From: Vibrio quintilis
GTDB lineage: Bacteria > Pseudomonadota > Gammaproteobacteria > Enterobacterales > Vibrionaceae
NCBI RefSeq assembly: GCF_024529975.1
Contig: NZ_AP024898.1
Coordinates: 496,001 to 560,000, forward strand
DNA: 64,000 nt
Direction: 5' to 3'
The number at the start of each line of letters is the position of its first letter. Position 1 is the first letter of the stretch. The translations under genes and the position numbers were made by a program. Below, piece by piece: positions 37,020 to 44,256 of the stretch. Under the pieces are notes generated by a model. That model did not search any database and was not told where the DNA came from. It worked only from the letters and a program-made list of their open reading frames with translations.

Positions 37020-37379
37020 ATTAAATTTTTATGAATGTGAAATTCGTTCCTTTTTAACTCATTGATTTTATGATGTTTGTCGATATTTCTCCTCTGCCAA
37101 CAATCTATTATTTCCTGTTAAAACAATACCTTATATTTTAAGTGTTAATTCCATCCATTAAATGTGTCTGTTTTTGAGATTTCGATCAAGTTTGCAAAAT
37201 AATGTCCGTTATTAATTTGAAATGTCCCGATCTTGAATTAGCTTAAATGTGACGGCAATAATCTTTTTATTTCAAGCGCTTTTAAAAAAACTTAATTATT
37301 TTGTCGGTTGGTGATCAAATATATTTGACACCTTTCATTATAAAAACTATTGAATTTGTTATATGAAATGGAGTCTTTA
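37020..37379. other. AT-rich promoter region of the pha operon
   Basis: There is no gene. The stretch is AT-rich and includes TTGACA at 37325-37330, but no -10 box at standard spacing stands out. GGAG nine bases before the phaB ATG is the ribosome-binding site. Confidence 0.5.
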
Positions 37380-38120
37380 ATGGACAAAATCGCTTTAATT
37401 ACCGGATCAGAAGGTGGTATTGGATCAGCAATTACCAGTCAGCTTGTAAAAGATGGTTTTCGTGTTATTGCTGCTTATTACACGGGGTGTTATGACGCTG
37501 CATTAAAAATATTTAATGACAATGGATTCACAGATAAACAAGTGCGTTTATTCGAAATAGATGTAACAAATACGGCTGAATGTTTTGAAAAACTTGGAGC
37601 GCTTCTCGAAGAAGAAGGTCATATTGACGTAGTTGTCAATAATGCGGGGATTACCCGTGATGGTTTGTTTAAAAAAATGCCTGCAGAGAACTGGCTGGAT
37701 GTAATCAATACAAATTTGAATAGTGTCTATAACGTGACCCGTCCGTTATTTGGTGCGATGTGTGAACGAAAATCAGGCCGTGTGGTGAACATTTCATCTG
37801 TGAATGGTCTGAAAGGACAATTCGGTCAGGCAAACTATTCAGCAGCGAAAGCCGGCATGATCGGTTTTTCAAAAGCGCTGGCAGCAGAAGGTGCAAGAGA
37901 CGGTGTGACTGTGAATGTCATTGCTCCCGGATACACAGGAACACCAATGGTTGAAAAAATGAAACCTGAGGTACTGGATTCTATCGTTCAACAGGTTCCG
38001 ATGAAACGCCTTGCCAAACCGGAAGAAATTGCCAAAGCAATCAGCTTCCTGGTGAGTGAAGATGCGGCGTACATTACAGGTGCGACTCTGTCCGTTAACG
38101 GCGGCTTGTACATGAGCTAA
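37380..38120 (+). CDS. phaB: Acetoacetyl-CoA reductase
   Basis: PhaB is the NADPH-dependent short-chain dehydrogenase that reduces acetoacetyl-CoA to (R)-3-hydroxybutyryl-CoA for PHB synthesis. The 246-residue product has the cofactor motif TGSEGGIGSAI, NNAGITRD, the catalytic Ser in VVNISSVNGLKGQFG and the Y153-x3-K157 pair in YSAAKAGM. VAPGY...TPM and the C-terminal YITGATLSVNGGLYMS fit PhaB exactly. The ATG at 37380 with GGAG is preferred to an upstream TTG/GTG-type start. phaA follows after 19 bases. Confidence 0.95.
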   Translation: MDKIALITGSEGGIGSAITSQLVKDGFRVIAAYYTGCYDAALKIFNDNGFTDKQVRLFEIDVTNTAECFEKLGALLEEEGHIDVVVNNAGITRDGLFKKMPAENWLDVINTNLNSVYNVTRPLFGAMCERKSGRVVNISSVNGLKGQFGQANYSAAKAGMIGFSKALAAEGARDGVTVNVIAPGYTGTPMVEKMKPEVLDSIVQQVPMKRLAKPEEIAKAISFLVSEDAAYITGATLSVNGGLYMS

Positions 38121-38139
38121 GTGAGAGAGGCGTTTACTG

Positions 38140-39348
38140 ATGGAAAAAGTATATATCGTTGCGGCAAAACGTTCCGCACTTGGCTCCTTTGGGGGCAGTC
38201 TGAAAGGGGTTGGCGTTGGTCAGCTTGCTGCTACTGTCATTAAAGGCGCGATGGATTCAGCTAAGTTAGATCCGGCAGTCGTAGATGAGGTCATTCTTGG
38301 TAATGTTGTCAGTGCTGGTCAGGGAATGGGCGTTGCCCGTCAGGCTTCACTGTATGCCGGCATTCCTCATACGGTTCCGGCGTATGCCATCAATATGGTA
38401 TGTGGTAGTGGCATGCGATCCGTCATGGATGGTGTGAATCACATCAAAGTTGGTGATGCGCAGGTTGTCGTTGCTGCCGGTGCTGAAGTGATGTCTCAAA
38501 TACCATATGCCATTCCCGCTGGTGTGCGTGACGGACACAAAATGGGCAATATGAACTGTGTTGATTTACTGATTAATGATGGATTAACCGACATATTTAA
38601 TCAGTACCACATGGGTGTGACAGCTGAAAATATTGCTAAAGAATATGCAATTTCTCGTCAGGAACAGGATGAATTCGCTCTTTCCAGCCAGAAAAAAGCT
38701 GTTGCTGCAATAGAAAGCGGAAAGTTTGTTGATGAAATCGTTCCGGTTGAGATTAAAGTAAAACGTGAAACCCGCCTGTTTGACACCGATGAGTATCCCA
38801 AAGCGAATACGTCGATGGAAGTTCTGGCGAAACTGCGGCCTGCATTTGATAAAGAAGGCACAGTGACCGCAGGGAATGCGTCGGGCATTAACGACGGAGC
38901 AAGTGCGGTAATTCTTGCTTCTGAAAGTGCAGTGAAAAAATATGACCTGGTGCCAATTGCTGAAATTATCAGCTGTGCACAAGGAGGCGTTGATCCAAAA
39001 GTCATGGGACTGGGACCGGTTCCAGCAGTAACAAAAGCACTCAGACAAATCGATATGTCATTAACTGATATGGATGTTCTTGAGTTGAATGAAGCTTTTG
39101 CGGCGCAGGCTTTAGGGGTTGTGAAAGGTTTGTCGGAGGAGTTTTCTGTTTCTGAAGAAGAGATTCTGAGCAAAGCAAATCTCAACGGTGGTGCAATTGC
39201 ACTCGGCCATCCTCTGGGCGCATCAGGTAACAGAATATTGGTCTCTCTGGTTCATGAATTGAGAAAGAGAGGGAATCAGTATGGAGTGGCATCACTATGT
39301 ATCGGCGGTGGAATGGGAACCGCGGTCGTCGTGAAGGCCGTTGGCTAG
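38140..39348 (+). CDS. phaA: Acetyl-CoA acetyltransferase (beta-ketothiolase)
   Basis: PhaA condenses two acetyl-CoA into acetoacetyl-CoA, the first step of PHB synthesis. The 402-residue product has the acyl-accepting Cys88 in NMVCGSGMRSV, H357 in ALGHPLGASG and C387 in SLCIGGGMGTA, the full thiolase triad, and NEAFAAQAL. The length is slightly above the usual 390-395. It lies between phaB and the phasin gene in one operon. Confidence 0.95.
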   Translation: MEKVYIVAAKRSALGSFGGSLKGVGVGQLAATVIKGAMDSAKLDPAVVDEVILGNVVSAGQGMGVARQASLYAGIPHTVPAYAINMVCGSGMRSVMDGVNHIKVGDAQVVVAAGAEVMSQIPYAIPAGVRDGHKMGNMNCVDLLINDGLTDIFNQYHMGVTAENIAKEYAISRQEQDEFALSSQKKAVAAIESGKFVDEIVPVEIKVKRETRLFDTDEYPKANTSMEVLAKLRPAFDKEGTVTAGNASGINDGASAVILASESAVKKYDLVPIAEIISCAQGGVDPKVMGLGPVPAVTKALRQIDMSLTDMDVLELNEAFAAQALGVVKGLSEEFSVSEEEILSKANLNGGAIALGHPLGASGNRILVSLVHELRKRGNQYGVASLCIGGGMGTAVVVKAVG

Positions 39349-39388
39349 TTGAAAGGAATAAAATTTTAAAATTTTAGGAGATACATTT

Positions 39389-39736
39389 ATGTATACGGAC
39401 TTTTTTAAAACATTTACAGATCAAACAGAAAAAACTCTGGAACCATTTTTTAAATTTAACAAAATTCTAACAAAAAATGTTGAAGTACTTACTGAACTTC
39501 AGCTTGGGTCAATGCGTGCTTACAGTGATATTGGTTTAACCCAAATGAAAGCCGCAAGTGACGTGAAAGATGCAGCTACACTCGCAGCTTACAGTACACA
39601 GCAGTTAACAACATTATCTAAATTGTCTCAACAGATGATCGACGACAGCAACAAGCTGCAGTCGATTGCGAAAGAGTTCAAAGATGATGTTGAAAAATTG
39701 ACAACTGATAACCTTTCAACAGTCACTCCTGCATAA
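39389..39736 (+). CDS. phaP: Phasin family PHB granule-associated protein
   Basis: The 115-residue helical protein has a phasin-type amphipathic pattern (MYTDFFKTFTDQTEKTLEPF, then NVEVLTELQLGSMRAYSDIG and LSKLSQQMIDDSNKLQSIAK). Phasins coat PHB granules and control their number and size. AGGAG before the ATG and the 40-base gap after phaA support operon membership. An intrinsic terminator follows before phaC. Confidence 0.92.
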   Translation: MYTDFFKTFTDQTEKTLEPFFKFNKILTKNVEVLTELQLGSMRAYSDIGLTQMKAASDVKDAATLAAYSTQQLTTLSKLSQQMIDDSNKLQSIAKEFKDDVEKLTTDNLSTVTPA

Positions 39737-39750
39737 CTCCGTGTATTTTG

Positions 39751-39781
39751 GCCGCCTTGGGGGGAGGCGGCTCTTTTTTTT
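39751..39781 (+). terminator. Intrinsic terminator between phaP and phaC
   Basis: GCCGCCT pairs with AGGCGGC around TGGGGGG, followed by CTC-free run TCTTTTTTTTT. It stands 14 bases after the phasin stop and 17 bases before phaC, so it should cause partial termination within the operon. Confidence 0.88.
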
Positions 39782-39798
39782 AACTAAGGAGTAGGTTT

Positions 39799-41592
39799 AT
39801 GTTTCAACACTTCTTTTCGGACTATCTCGTAAAGATTCAGGAAACGAACCAAAAATGGTGGGAAGATCTGGAAACTCAGCGGGAAGTCTTCAATTCGCCC
39901 TTGAATAAAGCGATGCAGGAAGTGAACTATGATGATACTGCAAAACTATTTGAGAGGGCTGCCGGCCAGCCAGCTGCATTAATGAATCTGCAGATGGAGT
40001 GGTGGAAAAAACAATTAGAAATCTGGCAAAACGTTGTTTTAGCCGGAAAAAAAGAACAGCTGATCGAAGCAGAGCATGGTGATAAACGTTTTTCGGATGA
40101 CGCATGGAAAGATGAAGCACTTTATAACTTTATCATGCAGTCCTATTTGTTGTTCGGAAAAACATATCTTGACACAATTGATTCAATTGATGGCGTCGAT
40201 GAAAAAGTCAAAGAACGTATCCGCTTTTTCTCCCGTCAGACAATCAACGCACTTTCACCCAGTAACTTTATTGCAACCAATCCGGAATTACTGAAATTAA
40301 CAATTGATAGTAACGGTCAGAACCTGATTGATGGTATGGAAGCATTAAAGGAGGATGTTGCGTCGAGTGCGGATATTCTGAAAGTCCGGATGACGAATAA
40401 CAATGCATTCCGTGTCGGACAAAATGTTGCAACCACGCCAGGTAAAGTTGTTTTTAAAAATGACTTATTCGAGCTGATTCAATATACCCCGATGACAGAG
40501 CAGGTGCACAGCACCCCATTGTTAATTGTTCCGCCATTTATCAACAAATACTACATTCTTGACCTTCGGGAAAAGAATTCTATGGTTCGTTGGTTGCTGG
40601 AACAAGGCCATAGCGTGTTTATGATGTCCTGGCGAAATCCGGGGCCGGAGCAGGCTGAACTGGGTTATGAAGATTACGTGCTTGACGGTGTCGTAAAGGC
40701 CGTGACTGCAGTCGGAGATATTTCCGGCCAGGAGCAGATTAATACAGCTGGTTATTGCATCGGTGGTACTCTGCTGGCAACAACAATGGCTTACTATGCT
40801 GCGAAACGGATGAAACGGCGGATTAAGTCAGCTTCATTCTTTACAACCCTGCTTGATTTTACGCTGCCCGGAGAAGTTGGTGTTTACATCAATGATCCGG
40901 TGATCAGTGCAATTGAAATGCAAAACTCAGCCAAAGGCTTCATGGATGGCCGCTCCCTCAGCGTGACATTCAGTATGCTCAGAGAAAACAGTCTCTACTG
41001 GAATTATTATGTTGATAATTATCTGAAAGGAGCCAATCCGGTTGATTTTGACTTACTCTACTGGAACAGTGACAGTACGAATGTAAGTGCGGCTTGCCAT
41101 AACTTCCTGTTAAGAGAGCTTTATTTAGAAAATAAACTGATCGAGGAAAAAGGTATCAAAGTCGGTGGTGTCTGGATTGATCTGAGTAAAATCAAAATTC
41201 CGAGCTATTTCATTTCTGCCCGGGAAGATCATATTGCATTGTGGGAAGGTACTTACCGTGGTGCGATGAATCTGGGCGGTGATAAAGTCTTTGTGCTTGG
41301 TGAATCCGGTCATATTGCCGGTATCATTAATCATCCGGCTAAGAATAAGTACGGTTACTGGGTGAGTGACAAGCTGGAAGCAGAGCCGAAAGACTGGCTT
41401 GAACATGCCAAACGAACGGATGGTTCCTGGTGGAGTCACTGGAATGAGTGGCTGGTCAGTTTCTGCGATGAGGAAAAAGTTGAACCATTCCCTGTCGGAG
41501 GTGAAGGTTACCCTGTGCTTGGTGAAGCGCCGGGAGATTACGTGAAGCAGGTTCTGCCGGTTGTACCGGAAGAAAAAGCAAAAGCGTCATGA
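39799..41592 (+). CDS. phaC: Class I poly(3-hydroxyalkanoate) synthase
   Basis: PhaC polymerises (R)-3-hydroxybutyryl-CoA into PHB on the granule surface. The 597-residue product has the lipase-like box GYCIGG with nucleophile C320, D477 in SAREDHIALW and H505 in GESGHIAGIINHP. These positions match the C319/D480/H508 triad of the Cupriavidus enzyme. PPFINKYYILDL and WRNPGPEQAELGYEDYV are further class I marks. The ATG follows AAGGAG. Its natural terminator has been split by an IS element (41630-43063). Confidence 0.96.
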   Translation: MFQHFFSDYLVKIQETNQKWWEDLETQREVFNSPLNKAMQEVNYDDTAKLFERAAGQPAALMNLQMEWWKKQLEIWQNVVLAGKKEQLIEAEHGDKRFSDDAWKDEALYNFIMQSYLLFGKTYLDTIDSIDGVDEKVKERIRFFSRQTINALSPSNFIATNPELLKLTIDSNGQNLIDGMEALKEDVASSADILKVRMTNNNAFRVGQNVATTPGKVVFKNDLFELIQYTPMTEQVHSTPLLIVPPFINKYYILDLREKNSMVRWLLEQGHSVFMMSWRNPGPEQAELGYEDYVLDGVVKAVTAVGDISGQEQINTAGYCIGGTLLATTMAYYAAKRMKRRIKSASFFTTLLDFTLPGEVGVYINDPVISAIEMQNSAKGFMDGRSLSVTFSMLRENSLYWNYYVDNYLKGANPVDFDLLYWNSDSTNVSAACHNFLLRELYLENKLIEEKGIKVGGVWIDLSKIKIPSYFISAREDHIALWEGTYRGAMNLGGDKVFVLGESGHIAGIINHPAKNKYGYWVSDKLEAEPKDWLEHAKRTDGSWWSHWNEWLVSFCDEEKVEPFPVGGEGYPVLGEAPGDYVKQVLPVVPEEKAKAS

Positions 41593-41616: not shown

Positions 41617-41629
41617 GCCGCCTTTACGG
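41617..41629 (+). terminator. Left arm of the interrupted phaC terminator
   Basis: GCCGCC plus TTTACGG is the 5' arm and loop of a hairpin whose other half, GGCGGC with TTTTTT, is now at 43071-43081. The last eight bases (CTTTACGG, 41622-41629) are the IS target duplication. Confidence 0.8.
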
Positions 41630-41683
41630 GCTAACTCCGATCAGTTAAGTAAATGATCAGTTGAACGATCCTGTGGTTGGTTG

Positions 41684-41719
41684 AAAATACCCTCAAGCAT
41701 TTATGTTTGAGGGTATTTT
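41684..41719 (+). promoter_or_regulatory. Insulating hairpin upstream of the transposase start
   Basis: AAAATACCCTCAA pairs with TTTGAGGGTATTTT, directly before the ATG at 41721. It has terminator shape and T-tail. It would stop or mask transcripts entering from phaC, keeping transposase low; such hairpins are known in several IS elements. Confidence 0.6.
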
Positions 41720-41720
41720 T

Positions 41721-43052
41721 ATGTTGGCTCACTGGCTTATTGATGTTGATGACTTTGCTTCTCCGGAATCTCTTGCACTCTTTCAAAAAGAGCTTCCACT
41801 AGAGTGGATAAATCAAGCACTTGATGAAACAAATAAAGCGAGCATGAGGCGGCGAAAGCTACCTGCTGAGCTCGTAGTCTGGCTCGTTGTTGGAATTGGT
41901 TTGTACCGTGACCGGCCTATTACTGATGTACTTGATAAATTAGATCTGAAGCTTTCTAATTCTCTGGGAGAGTCCATTGCTCCAAGCGCTATACCCCAAG
42001 CAAGAAAGCGATTAACAGCCAAACCTCTCGAAGCCCTATTCTCTTTAACAGCCGAGCATTGGACAGGTGCGGAAGACAATAAAGATACATGGTATGGGCT
42101 GAGACTTTTCTCGGTCGATGGCACCCAGTTTAGAACGCATGATACCAGTCCTCTGGCCGAACATTTTCATTACGTTAAACACAGCAAAACTCGCCATACC
42201 GAATACCCTATTGTCAGATTATGTGCACTTTGCTCCCTACGCAGCCGTCTACTCTATAATGTTGCTTTTGGCCCAAGTTCTACAGGCGAAGTGAACTATG
42301 CAAAGCAGCTCATTCCCTCAGTTCCTGCCAACTCCCTTACTATTTTTGACCGATGCTACCTAAGTGCAGAGCTGATGATTAACTGGTCACGACAACACGG
42401 TTCAAGCCATTGGATGACCCCGATAAAATCTAATACTCAGTATGAAGTTATCGAACAGCTGGATGAGGAGGGTCGAGATTTAATAGTGGAGATGAGCGTC
42501 TCTCAACATGCATTAAGGCAAGACCCGAGCCTACCTGAAAAATGGCAAGCAAGGCTCGTTCTTTACCCGGAGCAAGAGCAACCCAACCATATCAAAGGGC
42601 TCCTTACCTCTCTAACCGACAGCCAGTATAGTCTCCAATCTCTGCTTGATGTCTATTTTGAGCGGTGGGAAGTTGAGAACAGCTACGGCGAAATAAAGCA
42701 CGATATGCTTGAGGATGAAGTGTTACTGCGAAGCCAGTCAGTTGAGGGAGTGGAACAAGAAATATGGGGAATACTTATCGCCTACAACCTTGTTCGTTTG
42801 GAGATAAGCCGTATTGCTAAAGAGGCAGGGGTATCACCTTTGCGGATCAGTTTTATGATGGCGCTTCGAGATATCCAGGACGAGCTCATGTGGTGTGCAA
42901 TAGCTTCACCAGGCTCGATCCCCAAAAAACTGAGGGCGATGCGTGAACGTGTAAAACGCTACATCTTGCCTGAGCGAAAAAAACGGCCCAAATCAAGGAC
43001 CGTTCGTATAAGTAAGACCCGCTATCCAGTTCGCTCCAAGCACCTTAAGTGA
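41721..43052 (+). CDS. IS4-family DDE transposase
   Basis: The product has 443 residues from the chosen ATG (MLAHWLIDVDDF). The DDE signature is seen as FSVDGTQFR (first Asp), TIFDRCYLS (second Asp) and the IS4-specific Y-x2-R-x3-E-x6-K in YFERWEVENSYGEIK. An N-terminal DUF-type domain (LPLEWINQALDETNKASMRR) precedes the catalytic core. An in-frame ATG at 41703 lies in the hairpin loop and is less likely to be used. The gene shows no frameshift or stop. Confidence 0.92.
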   Translation: MLAHWLIDVDDFASPESLALFQKELPLEWINQALDETNKASMRRRKLPAELVVWLVVGIGLYRDRPITDVLDKLDLKLSNSLGESIAPSAIPQARKRLTAKPLEALFSLTAEHWTGAEDNKDTWYGLRLFSVDGTQFRTHDTSPLAEHFHYVKHSKTRHTEYPIVRLCALCSLRSRLLYNVAFGPSSTGEVNYAKQLIPSVPANSLTIFDRCYLSAELMINWSRQHGSSHWMTPIKSNTQYEVIEQLDEEGRDLIVEMSVSQHALRQDPSLPEKWQARLVLYPEQEQPNHIKGLLTSLTDSQYSLQSLLDVYFERWEVENSYGEIKHDMLEDEVLLRSQSVEGVEQEIWGILIAYNLVRLEISRIAKEAGVSPLRISFMMALRDIQDELMWCAIASPGSIPKKLRAMRERVKRYILPERKKRPKSRTVRISKTRYPVRSKHLK

Positions 43053-43063
43053 TAGGAGTTAGC

Positions 43064-43082
43064 CTTTACGGGCGGCTTTTTT
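43064..43082 (+). terminator. Right arm of the interrupted phaC terminator
   Basis: CTTTACGG (target duplication) is followed by GCGGC and TTTTTT. Alone it cannot form the original GCCGCC/GGCGGC hairpin. A chance partner may exist at the IS end (GTTAGCC). Confidence 0.7.
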
Positions 43083-43311: not shown

Positions 43312-44256
43312 ATGGTTAATAACACAATTCAGTGGTTTCCCGGCCATATGCATAAGGCACGTAAGGAAATCGAAGAAGTGATTCCGCAAATTGATGTCAT
43401 TATTGAAGTACTGGATGCCCGCATTCCTTTCAGTAGTGAGAATCCGATGATTGCTGAATTAAGAGGAGACCGGCCTTGCGTTAAGGTTTTGAATAAACGG
43501 GATCTGGCCGATCCGGAAGTGACCGAATTGTGGATTCATCATCTTGAACAGGAAAGAGGCGTAAAAGCGTTGGCAATTACCACGCAGCACCCTCAGGAAG
43601 TTCATAAAATCATGGAGTTGTGCCGGAAACTAGCCCCGCACCGCGAAGAGATTGGCAAAAATATCCGCACTATGATTATGGGAATTCCTAATGTGGGTAA
43701 ATCGACTATTATTAATACCTTAGCCGGCCGGACGATTGCTCAAACGGGTAACCAGCCTGCCGTAACCCGTCGTCAGCAACGGATCAATCTGCAAAACGGG
43801 ATTGTGTTATCCGACACCCCGGGGATTCTGTGGCCAAAAGTTTCAAACCCGCATTCCGGGTTTCGTCTGGCAGCGACCGGTGCAATCAAAGATACGGCCA
43901 TGGAGTATGAAGATGTTGCATTTTATACGGTGGAATACCTTGCAGCGGCTTACCCGGAATTATTAAAAAGTCGCTATTTGATTGAGGAAACCCCTGAAAG
44001 TGATATTGAATGGCTTGAAGCCATCGGTCGAAAGCGGGGTGCATTGCGTGCCGGTGGACGGATTGATCTGCATAAAGCCTCGGAAATTCTGTTGCATGAA
44101 CTTCGTTCCGGAACAATTGGTGGTATCACGCTGGAAAGGCCGGAAATGATTGATCAGGAACTGATCGATGCTGAGCGGGAAGAACTCAGAAAATCGGAAG
44201 AAAAAGCGAAAAGAAAAGAAGAACGCAGAAAACGCTATTTAAAAAATAAGCGCTGA
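43312..44256 (+). CDS. ylqF: Ribosome-assembly GTPase YlqF/RbgA family
   Basis: The 314-residue protein is a circularly permuted GTPase. The order of motifs is G4 NKRDL (residue about 62), G5-like ALAITTQ, G1 GIPNVGKST and G3 DTPGI. The start WFPGHMHKARKEI is the RbgA N-terminus, and the tail is rich in Lys/Arg. RbgA in Bacillus helps mature the large ribosomal subunit; the same role here is inferred. The ATG at 43312 is chosen because homologues start just before WFPGHM, not 23 codons upstream. Confidence 0.92.
   Translation: MVNNTIQWFPGHMHKARKEIEEVIPQIDVIIEVLDARIPFSSENPMIAELRGDRPCVKVLNKRDLADPEVTELWIHHLEQERGVKALAITTQHPQEVHKIMELCRKLAPHREEIGKNIRTMIMGIPNVGKSTIINTLAGRTIAQTGNQPAVTRRQQRINLQNGIVLSDTPGILWPKVSNPHSGFRLAATGAIKDTAMEYEDVAFYTVEYLAAAYPELLKSRYLIEETPESDIEWLEAIGRKRGALRAGGRIDLHKASEILLHELRSGTIGGITLERPEMIDQELIDAEREELRKSEEKAKRKEERRKRYLKNKR

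Follow-up and report, generated by a model that had tools for sequence, protein, structure and literature searches.

Evidence that insertion sequences of the IS4 subgroup target intrinsic transcription terminators and may replace them

The window, a stretch of 64,000 nucleotides of Vibrio quintilis DNA, contains a phaB-phaA-phaP-phaC block (37350-41592, + strand) that is followed by an IS4-family insertion sequence (IS) and then by ylqF. The element lies within the predicted terminator of the pha operon, and this position raises two questions: whether the choice of site was an accident of the locus, and what becomes of pha transcripts once their terminator has been split. The reading preferred here, to which we assign a probability of roughly 0.8, is that the transposase of this IS4-subgroup element prefers terminators and splits the host stem upon insertion, and that hairpins near the ends of the element would stop transcripts entering from the flanks and thereby replace the terminator.

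The element inserted behind phaC

The features of the locus are as follows.

37350-38120, + strand: phaB, intact (open reading frames, Pfam and NCBIfam)
38140-39348, + strand: phaA, intact (same evidence)
39389-39736, + strand: phaP, intact (same evidence)
39799-41592, + strand: phaC, intact (same evidence)
41617-41631, + strand: left half of the split phaC terminator, GCCGCC-TTTACG-GGC (sequence; empty site in another species)
41620-41631, + strand: left copy of the 12-bp target duplication, GCCTTTACGGGC (sequence; end analysis of 8 copies)
41632-43061, + strand: insertion sequence of the IS4 subgroup, 1430 bp long (one of 8 identical copies in the genome)
41632-41649, + strand: left terminal inverted repeat (sequence; end analysis)
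41721-43052, + strand: transposase, probable start at 41721 in a reading frame open from 41703 (PF13006 and PF01609, NF033592; start conserved in relatives)
43044-43061, + strand: right terminal inverted repeat (sequence; end analysis)
43062-43073, + strand: right copy of the 12-bp target duplication, GCCTTTACGGGC (sequence; end analysis of 8 copies)
43062-43082, + strand: right half of the split phaC terminator, GCC-TTTACG-GGCGGC-TTTTTT (sequence)
43312-44256, + strand: ylqF, the next gene downstream, on the same strand as the pha genes (TIGR03596)

A preliminary description of this DNA had reported an IS4-family element that left the pha genes untouched, and both statements hold. All four pha reading frames are intact, and the transposase matches PF13006 (Nterm_IS4, E = 5e-27) and PF01609 (DDE_Tnp_1, E = 3.8e-23), scores 256.5 bits against NF033592 (cut-off 115) and is 35% identical to the Escherichia coli IS4 transposase over 415 positions. 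The ends of the element, TAACTCCGATCAGTTAAG and CTTAAGTGATAGGAGTTA, are complementary at 16 of 18 positions and fit all eight identical copies in the genome. Here, the limits proposed earlier (41630-43063) required correction to 41632-43061. The flanking duplications are real, but the length of 8 bp first given to them is rejected in favor of 12 bp; these small errors arose because GC bases of the target had been counted as ends of the element. Given that each of the eight copies has its own direct repeat of 10-15 bp (15 bp in one copy, L008), a chance match of the flanking repeats is ruled out.

From its sequence, the window element is assigned to the IS4 subgroup of the IS4 family, the prototype of which is E. 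coli IS4. With that subgroup, as tabulated by De Palmenaer et al. 2008 (PMC2266710), it has in common the transposase family, the Y-(2)-R-(3)-E-(6)-K motif (YFERWEVENSYGEIK), the size (1400-1650 bp in the table) and the length of the duplication (10-13 bp). It differs at its termini: of the tabulated end consensus -AATR--------WTW----, the window ends carry the AA and the WTW but not T4 or R5, and they read TAACT where relatives of 33-46% identity and E. coli IS4 have TAATG or CAATG. Named close relatives of the transposase occur in Vibrio, Shewanella, Pseudoalteromonas, Grimontia and Photobacterium; a search at E 1e-40 returned 1 of 370 genomes class-wide (the window's own) and 8 of 299 phylum-wide.

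When the flanks are joined without the element they read GCCGCC-TTTACG-GGCGGC-TTTTTT, starting 24 nt past the phaC stop codon. This sequence has the form of an intrinsic terminator (a 6-bp all-GC stem, a 6-nt loop and a run of six T residues) and is predicted to be one. The insertion had been placed in the loop; it does split the hairpin, but the 12-bp duplication takes in the loop together with the inner half of both stem arms. Folding gave -18.6 kcal/mol for the joined (empty) site, -8.0 for the left junction and -11.6 for the right junction.

An empty site was found by the comparison of phaC-ylqF junctions that had been suggested, in another species rather than in a sister strain. The best non-self match among 227 genomes of the same genus (G001, locus L317; 83% DNA identity) has an intact GCCGCC-TTAACT-GGCGGC-TTTTTT between phaC and ylqF and no IS, and this hairpin was scored as terminator-like by the built-in terminator scan. 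Thus the earlier claim that the IS split the pha operon terminator is supported both by the joined flanks and by the empty site, and the eight identical copies, together with the IS-free junction, favor the recent event that had been proposed. With the 3' end of phaC as query, 166 of the 227 genomes were matched, and the match extends to the duplication in this one relative. A terminator lies within 150 nt behind the reading frame of the phaC match in 19 of the 29 matching genomes inspected (our own caller), and from the ylqF side 29 loci gave no BLAST match to phaC upstream of ylqF.

Terminators as targets across the IS4 subgroup

Related copies were gathered from ten genomes of the same genus (80 loci) and from an order-wide draw of 394 genomes that included same-genus ones (60 loci), to which 8 named near-full-length copies and the 8 copies of the window's own genome were added (156 in total). 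They are a selection among the matches listed, in which near-full-length matches were picked before their flanks were inspected; G166 and G029 were left out, and G200 and G223 were sampled in part. Ends with an exact duplication were accepted at 139 of the 156 loci (those of L145 being taken from a first inspection of copies), and one of these, L216, duplicates the site of L215, leaving 138 unique sites from 35 genomes or records. The 17 loci with no usable duplication were dropped, and several of them appeared by eye to be terminator halves with mutated or exchanged duplications. Duplications are exchanged between the copies at L123/L126 (G208), L136/L138 (G223) and L198/L199 (G378), as after recombination between two copies, and the broken ends at these pairs are mostly terminator halves.

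The caller used here demanded at least four Watson-Crick pairs, including three G-C pairs, and a T-run or A-run adjoining the stem. By this measure, 128 of the 138 insertions are centered on a terminator-like hairpin, compared with 392 of 22,000 random positions from the same loci, and at a threshold of at least six pairs the figures are 124 of 138 and 141 of 22,000. When right arms were swapped between sites, the mean number of calls dropped to 104 (at least four pairs) and 65 (at least six pairs). Pairing at arm positions 1-4 was 0.82, 0.85, 0.78 and 0.77, against 0.42, 0.54, 0.42 and 0.41 after swapping, and inside the duplication the mean over four positions was 0.74 against 0.33. Many sites resemble the textbook-like bidirectional terminator at L088, aaaaaacct[GCTCATTGAGC]aggttttttt. 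Ten of the 138 sites were not called as terminator-like.

The gene context is consistent with these calls. Open reading frames contain 10 of the 138 sites (5 of the 128 called ones), compared with 2142 of 2664 random positions. Convergent genes flank 77 sites; in tandem contexts, 21 sites lie behind a gene co-directional with the transposase and 21 behind an opposed gene, so that no orientation bias is seen; 6 sites lie between divergent genes, and for 3 no gene is visible on the left. Where a gene reads into the site, its stop codon is a median of 39 bp away (199 distances). In thirteen cases, two sites from different genomes occupy the same orthologous terminator, with the IS in opposite orientation in 10 and with differing elements (ungapped comparison) in the other three, and one such terminator is occupied in four genomes (L094, L110, L114 and L124). 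The sharing of orthologous terminators by opposite or differing elements favors repeated independent insertion. That IS4-subgroup elements target intrinsic terminators is therefore well supported by sequence comparison, and the choice of site at phaC is read as the rule of the IS subgroup; an accident specific to the phaC locus is rejected, hairpin targeting being general across the subgroup. Such a rule was not part of the preliminary description, which also lacked the 12-bp duplication and the inward-facing hairpin at the right end of the element.

The copies in the window's own genome, all of which carry duplications of 10-15 bp, show a broader distribution. Four of the eight (the window copy, L002, L003 and L005) lie in clear terminators and four (L004, L006, L007 and L008) in open reading frames, a share that exceeds the 6 of 130 observed elsewhere (Fisher p = 0.0009). 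The window's own element may thus be less strict in its choice of site than its relatives. The reading-frame pieces around L004, L006, L007 and L008 match UxuA, a LysR-type HTH, BcsB and a Gate domain.

The geometry of insertion is precise. Duplications of 10, 11, 12, 13, 14, 15 and 16 bp occur at 23, 41, 53, 16, 2, 2 and 1 of the 138 sites, and of the 128 called sites, 99 have the hairpin dyad exactly at the center of the duplication and 21 have it half a base off. Loop and duplication agree in parity in 107 sites (65 even-even and 42 odd-odd) and disagree in 21 (12 and 9; Fisher p = 2e-14). AAA and TTT occur nearby at 119 sites; 112 of these are cut 2-4 nt away from the A tract, and 109 show the same spacing to the T tract. 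The distance from cut to tract shows no correlation with the length of the duplication (-0.03), whereas hairpin length does (0.51, a value partly built in since the hairpin includes the duplication). A fixed tract distance and a growing hairpin imply that the cuts are set by the base of the stem and that the tip is duplicated at any size. In folding, the intact hairpin is stronger than both junctions at 129 of the 138 sites.

These observations can be arranged in a minimal model. The transposase prefers intrinsic-terminator hairpins and, as the sequences show, makes its cuts symmetrically around the dyad at a distance of 2-4 nt inward from the A and T tracts; the loop and upper stem (10-16 bp) become the target duplication, and the host stem is split, as seen in both sequence and folding.

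How the terminator is recognized admits two explanations, each compatible with terminator targeting. Recognition of linear duplex DNA, in which each transposase subunit binds an A tract and a GC arm and such palindromes are mostly terminators, has close to an even chance of being correct. A symmetric transposase complex is expected to favor symmetric targets, as is established for DDE transposases. Consistent with this, A occupies positions -5 to -7 in 92-94% of the 138 sites and T occupies +5 to +7 in 85-91%, with GCC/GGC-like arms, and the in-gene sites L004, L007 and L008 keep GC arms beside T-rich stretches while forming poor hairpins. Against it, the arms vary between sites yet pair within a site, and their spacing varies by up to 6 bp with the distance from cut to tract fixed. 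Moreover, where the outer arms pair in an AAA...TTT frame, pairing continues into the inner part at 103 of 104 sites, compared with 61 of 181 background frames. This excess favors a folded form being read, although real terminators pair throughout anyway.

The alternative, which we hold only tentatively and at distinctly less than even odds, is that the terminator is read as a folded structure; this could be an extruded cruciform, or a hairpin formed where strands are exposed at transcribed, supercoiled 3' ends. The duplication would then be set by the hairpin tip rather than by a fixed stagger, two end terminators would replace the broken one, and IS4, IS3 and IS1182 elements would have reached the terminator niche independently, each with its own place of cutting.

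Hairpins at the ends of the element and the fate of pha transcripts

Two hairpins with T-runs are located near the ends of the window element.

41684-41720, + strand: leader hairpin and T-run with arms 41684-41700 and 41703-41719, directly before the transposase ATG (inverted repeat; fold -23.7 kcal/mol)
42977-43005, - strand: right-end inward-facing hairpin and T-run (built-in scan; fold -13.9 kcal/mol)

The leader hairpin, which pha transcription would meet 52 nt into the element, is likely to be a terminator for transcripts from phaC, and the right-end hairpin is a possible terminator for transcripts from the right. The built-in scan of the element called the right-end hairpin as 1 of 3 sites found, with a mean of 1.6 in shuffles, and gave no call at the leader hairpin because the stem absorbs the T-run.

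Both structures recur in relatives. Among 34 representative elements picked by an ungapped identity rule, some of which are close variants, our own caller found a leader hairpin with a T-run in 31, mostly 50-100 nt from the left end; by eye, this hairpin is also seen in the remaining three (G116, G562 and G585), where its loop is larger. Of the 31 called leaders, 30 or 31 pair at any one of 12 stem positions, with four to six standard pair types per position, and as these leaders were chosen by having a stem it is the variety of pair types that is telling. The start codon follows almost directly after the leader T-run. In 31 of the 34 representatives, the last 100 nt before the right end contain a minus-strand hairpin with a T-run, located at ∼16-18 nt in 14 (built from the right inverted repeat), at 42 nt in one and at 69-80 nt in 16, compared with at most 4 of 34 representatives for a hairpin in any other 50-nt bin of the element.

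Given one inward-facing hairpin with a T-run near each end, in the leader before the ATG and at or near the right inverted repeat, transcripts from either flank would most likely be stopped. We infer that the end hairpins terminate transcription, stand in for the host terminator and cut the cost of insertion. The same structures would shield the transposase from outside promoters and replace the broken host terminator, and terminators would thereby become cheap landing sites. At phaC, pha transcripts should end near 41720, within the IS, with no run-on into ylqF.

It is plausible, though somewhat short of even odds, that the end hairpins serve the element only, by shielding it from outside transcription and hiding the ribosome-binding site, and that targeting evolved separately with host termination as a by-product. 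Of 46 leaders examined, 41 had a start assigned, and 32 of these have a Shine-Dalgarno-like motif immediately upstream of it, within or next to the 3' arm of the hairpin; IS-borne 5' terminators with this role have been described for other ISs (PMC2965389). However, 31 of 34 representatives have a minus-strand hairpin near the right end, which would be superfluous for shielding the transposase; a block to antisense transcription is a possible use for it.

Two outcomes had been offered in the preliminary description, namely an IS hairpin acting as a substitute terminator and read-through into ylqF. The former is favored and the latter disfavored, because the leader hairpin is kept across the relatives examined with stem bases that have changed and still pair. 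Read-through as the main effect of a chance, locus-specific insertion would agree with the folding of the two junctions, which are weaker than the intact hairpin, and with ylqF being the next gene on the same strand. It is nevertheless improbable, as terminator targeting is general in the subgroup and a strong hairpin with a T-run faces pha transcription inside the element.

Other insertion sequences, known systems and E. coli IS4

The comparison set consisted of 60 loci of other transposases from the same genomes, with families assigned by NCBIfam and ends found in 53. An IS3-family element with TGAACTGACCCC ends and 3-bp duplications (L296-L303 and L389-L392 in G029; L310-L314 in G212) is hairpin-centered in 11 of 17 sites; it was rejected as a negative control, since it lands in terminator loops itself. 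An IS1182-family element (L400-L410, G222) is centered on terminator hairpins in 9 of 9 sites with ends called, and by eye the hairpin ends directly at the left end in 11 of 11 loci; the duplication search was limited to 12 bp here, and the true duplication is probably longer. By contrast, a second IS3 element with TGTCCCGTCC ends (L382-L388 in G044; L305-L309 in G202; L393 and L394 in G212) is hairpin-centered in 0 of 14 sites, and four further elements in 1 of 13. The low rates of these elements, set against the high rates elsewhere, imply that landing in terminators is no general property of ISs in these genomes and that it occurs in three families. At 10 of its 14 sites, the element with TGTCCCGTCC ends is immediately preceded by a terminator on the element's strand, compared with 124 of 4004 random positions. 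Another IS3-family element, with TGATATGGCCCC ends (L315, L378, L379 and L381; G044), has at least 4 of its 5 sites within short tandem repeats.

Pure survivorship, that is, near-random insertion with only harmless 3' intergenic copies retained, would fit both the high cost of most random insertions (2142 of 2664 random positions being in open reading frames) and the association of three transposase families with terminators, but it is very improbable and is largely rejected, as harmlessness leaves the base-exact centering on the dyad in 99 of 128 sites unexplained, random intergenic positions a few bases away would be equally harmless, and the other elements of the same genomes are hairpin-centered in 1 of 13 and, for a fifth, 0 of 14 sites.

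In part, these findings have precedents. The 2008 review of the IS4 family noted a "spectacular" specificity of the target arms; in the portion of its text available, the arms are not tied to transcription ends and the word "terminator" is absent (PMC2266710). Elements that target repetitive extragenic palindromes (REPs), such as ISRm22 (IS4 family), ISPsy8 and ISPpu9/10, likewise enter an extragenic palindrome at its axis of symmetry, frequently where two genes converge, and their authors already argue that such places are harmless (PMC1525189); a table in the same paper places 3 of the 11 IS4 copies of one Shigella genome close to REPs. REPs form families of repeated sequences, whereas the targets at the 138 sites differ in sequence and are diverse terminators sharing structure and A/T tracts, so the likeness is one of mode of working only. 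Unlike the REP-targeting elements described there, the IS4-subgroup element carries putative terminators of its own.

Group IIC introns were reportedly found to insert behind intrinsic terminators in work by Robart et al. from 2007. They use the terminator as a landing site with no single fixed sequence, as is the case here, but they are retroelements and insert behind the hairpin, whereas IS4-subgroup insertion occurs inside it; the IS3 element with TGTCCCGTCC ends would be the closer parallel. Protection from read-through is known for IS10 and IS50. The "mobile attenuators" of Naville and Gautheret 2010 (PMC2965389) carry a terminator before the transposase that limits outside transcription, as proposed here; in the available text of that article, IS insertion is described as nearly random and terminators are not mentioned as targets.

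In searches of open-license papers, none was found on IS4-group elements targeting intrinsic terminators, which is weak evidence of novelty, nor any that joins IS4 arm specificity, REP-targeting ISs and IS-borne 5' terminators. These three are already known. A target pattern that was noted but unexplained in a long-known IS group would become a rule, landing in transcription terminators, that predicts where such elements land. The rule suggests low-cost multiplication, as the element brings a stop signal for each side, and it allows tests of whether DNA secondary structure is read by a DDE transposase and of where the variation in duplication length comes from. With three transposase families in the same niche in one genus, mobile DNA may find refuge in terminators more widely.

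The prototype behaves similarly. A target of the form AAAN20TTT has been ascribed to IS4, a target preference is also known for IS231A, and an IS4 in the pheST attenuator was reportedly described by Mayaux et al. in 1984. Fourteen E. coli IS4 loci, of 2739 matching records, represent 10 distinct sites. Our own caller was positive at seven of these (behind glgP, pdxK-crr, bamD-raiA, near gnsA/cspG, tdk-adhE, behind glcA and fumB-fumC) and negative at three (a phenylacetate gene, yicI and the K-12 site near nanX). In E. coli K-12 itself, the hairpins at pdxK-crr and bamD-raiA are intact, and the K-12 IS4 carries the same leader hairpin ahead of its ATG.
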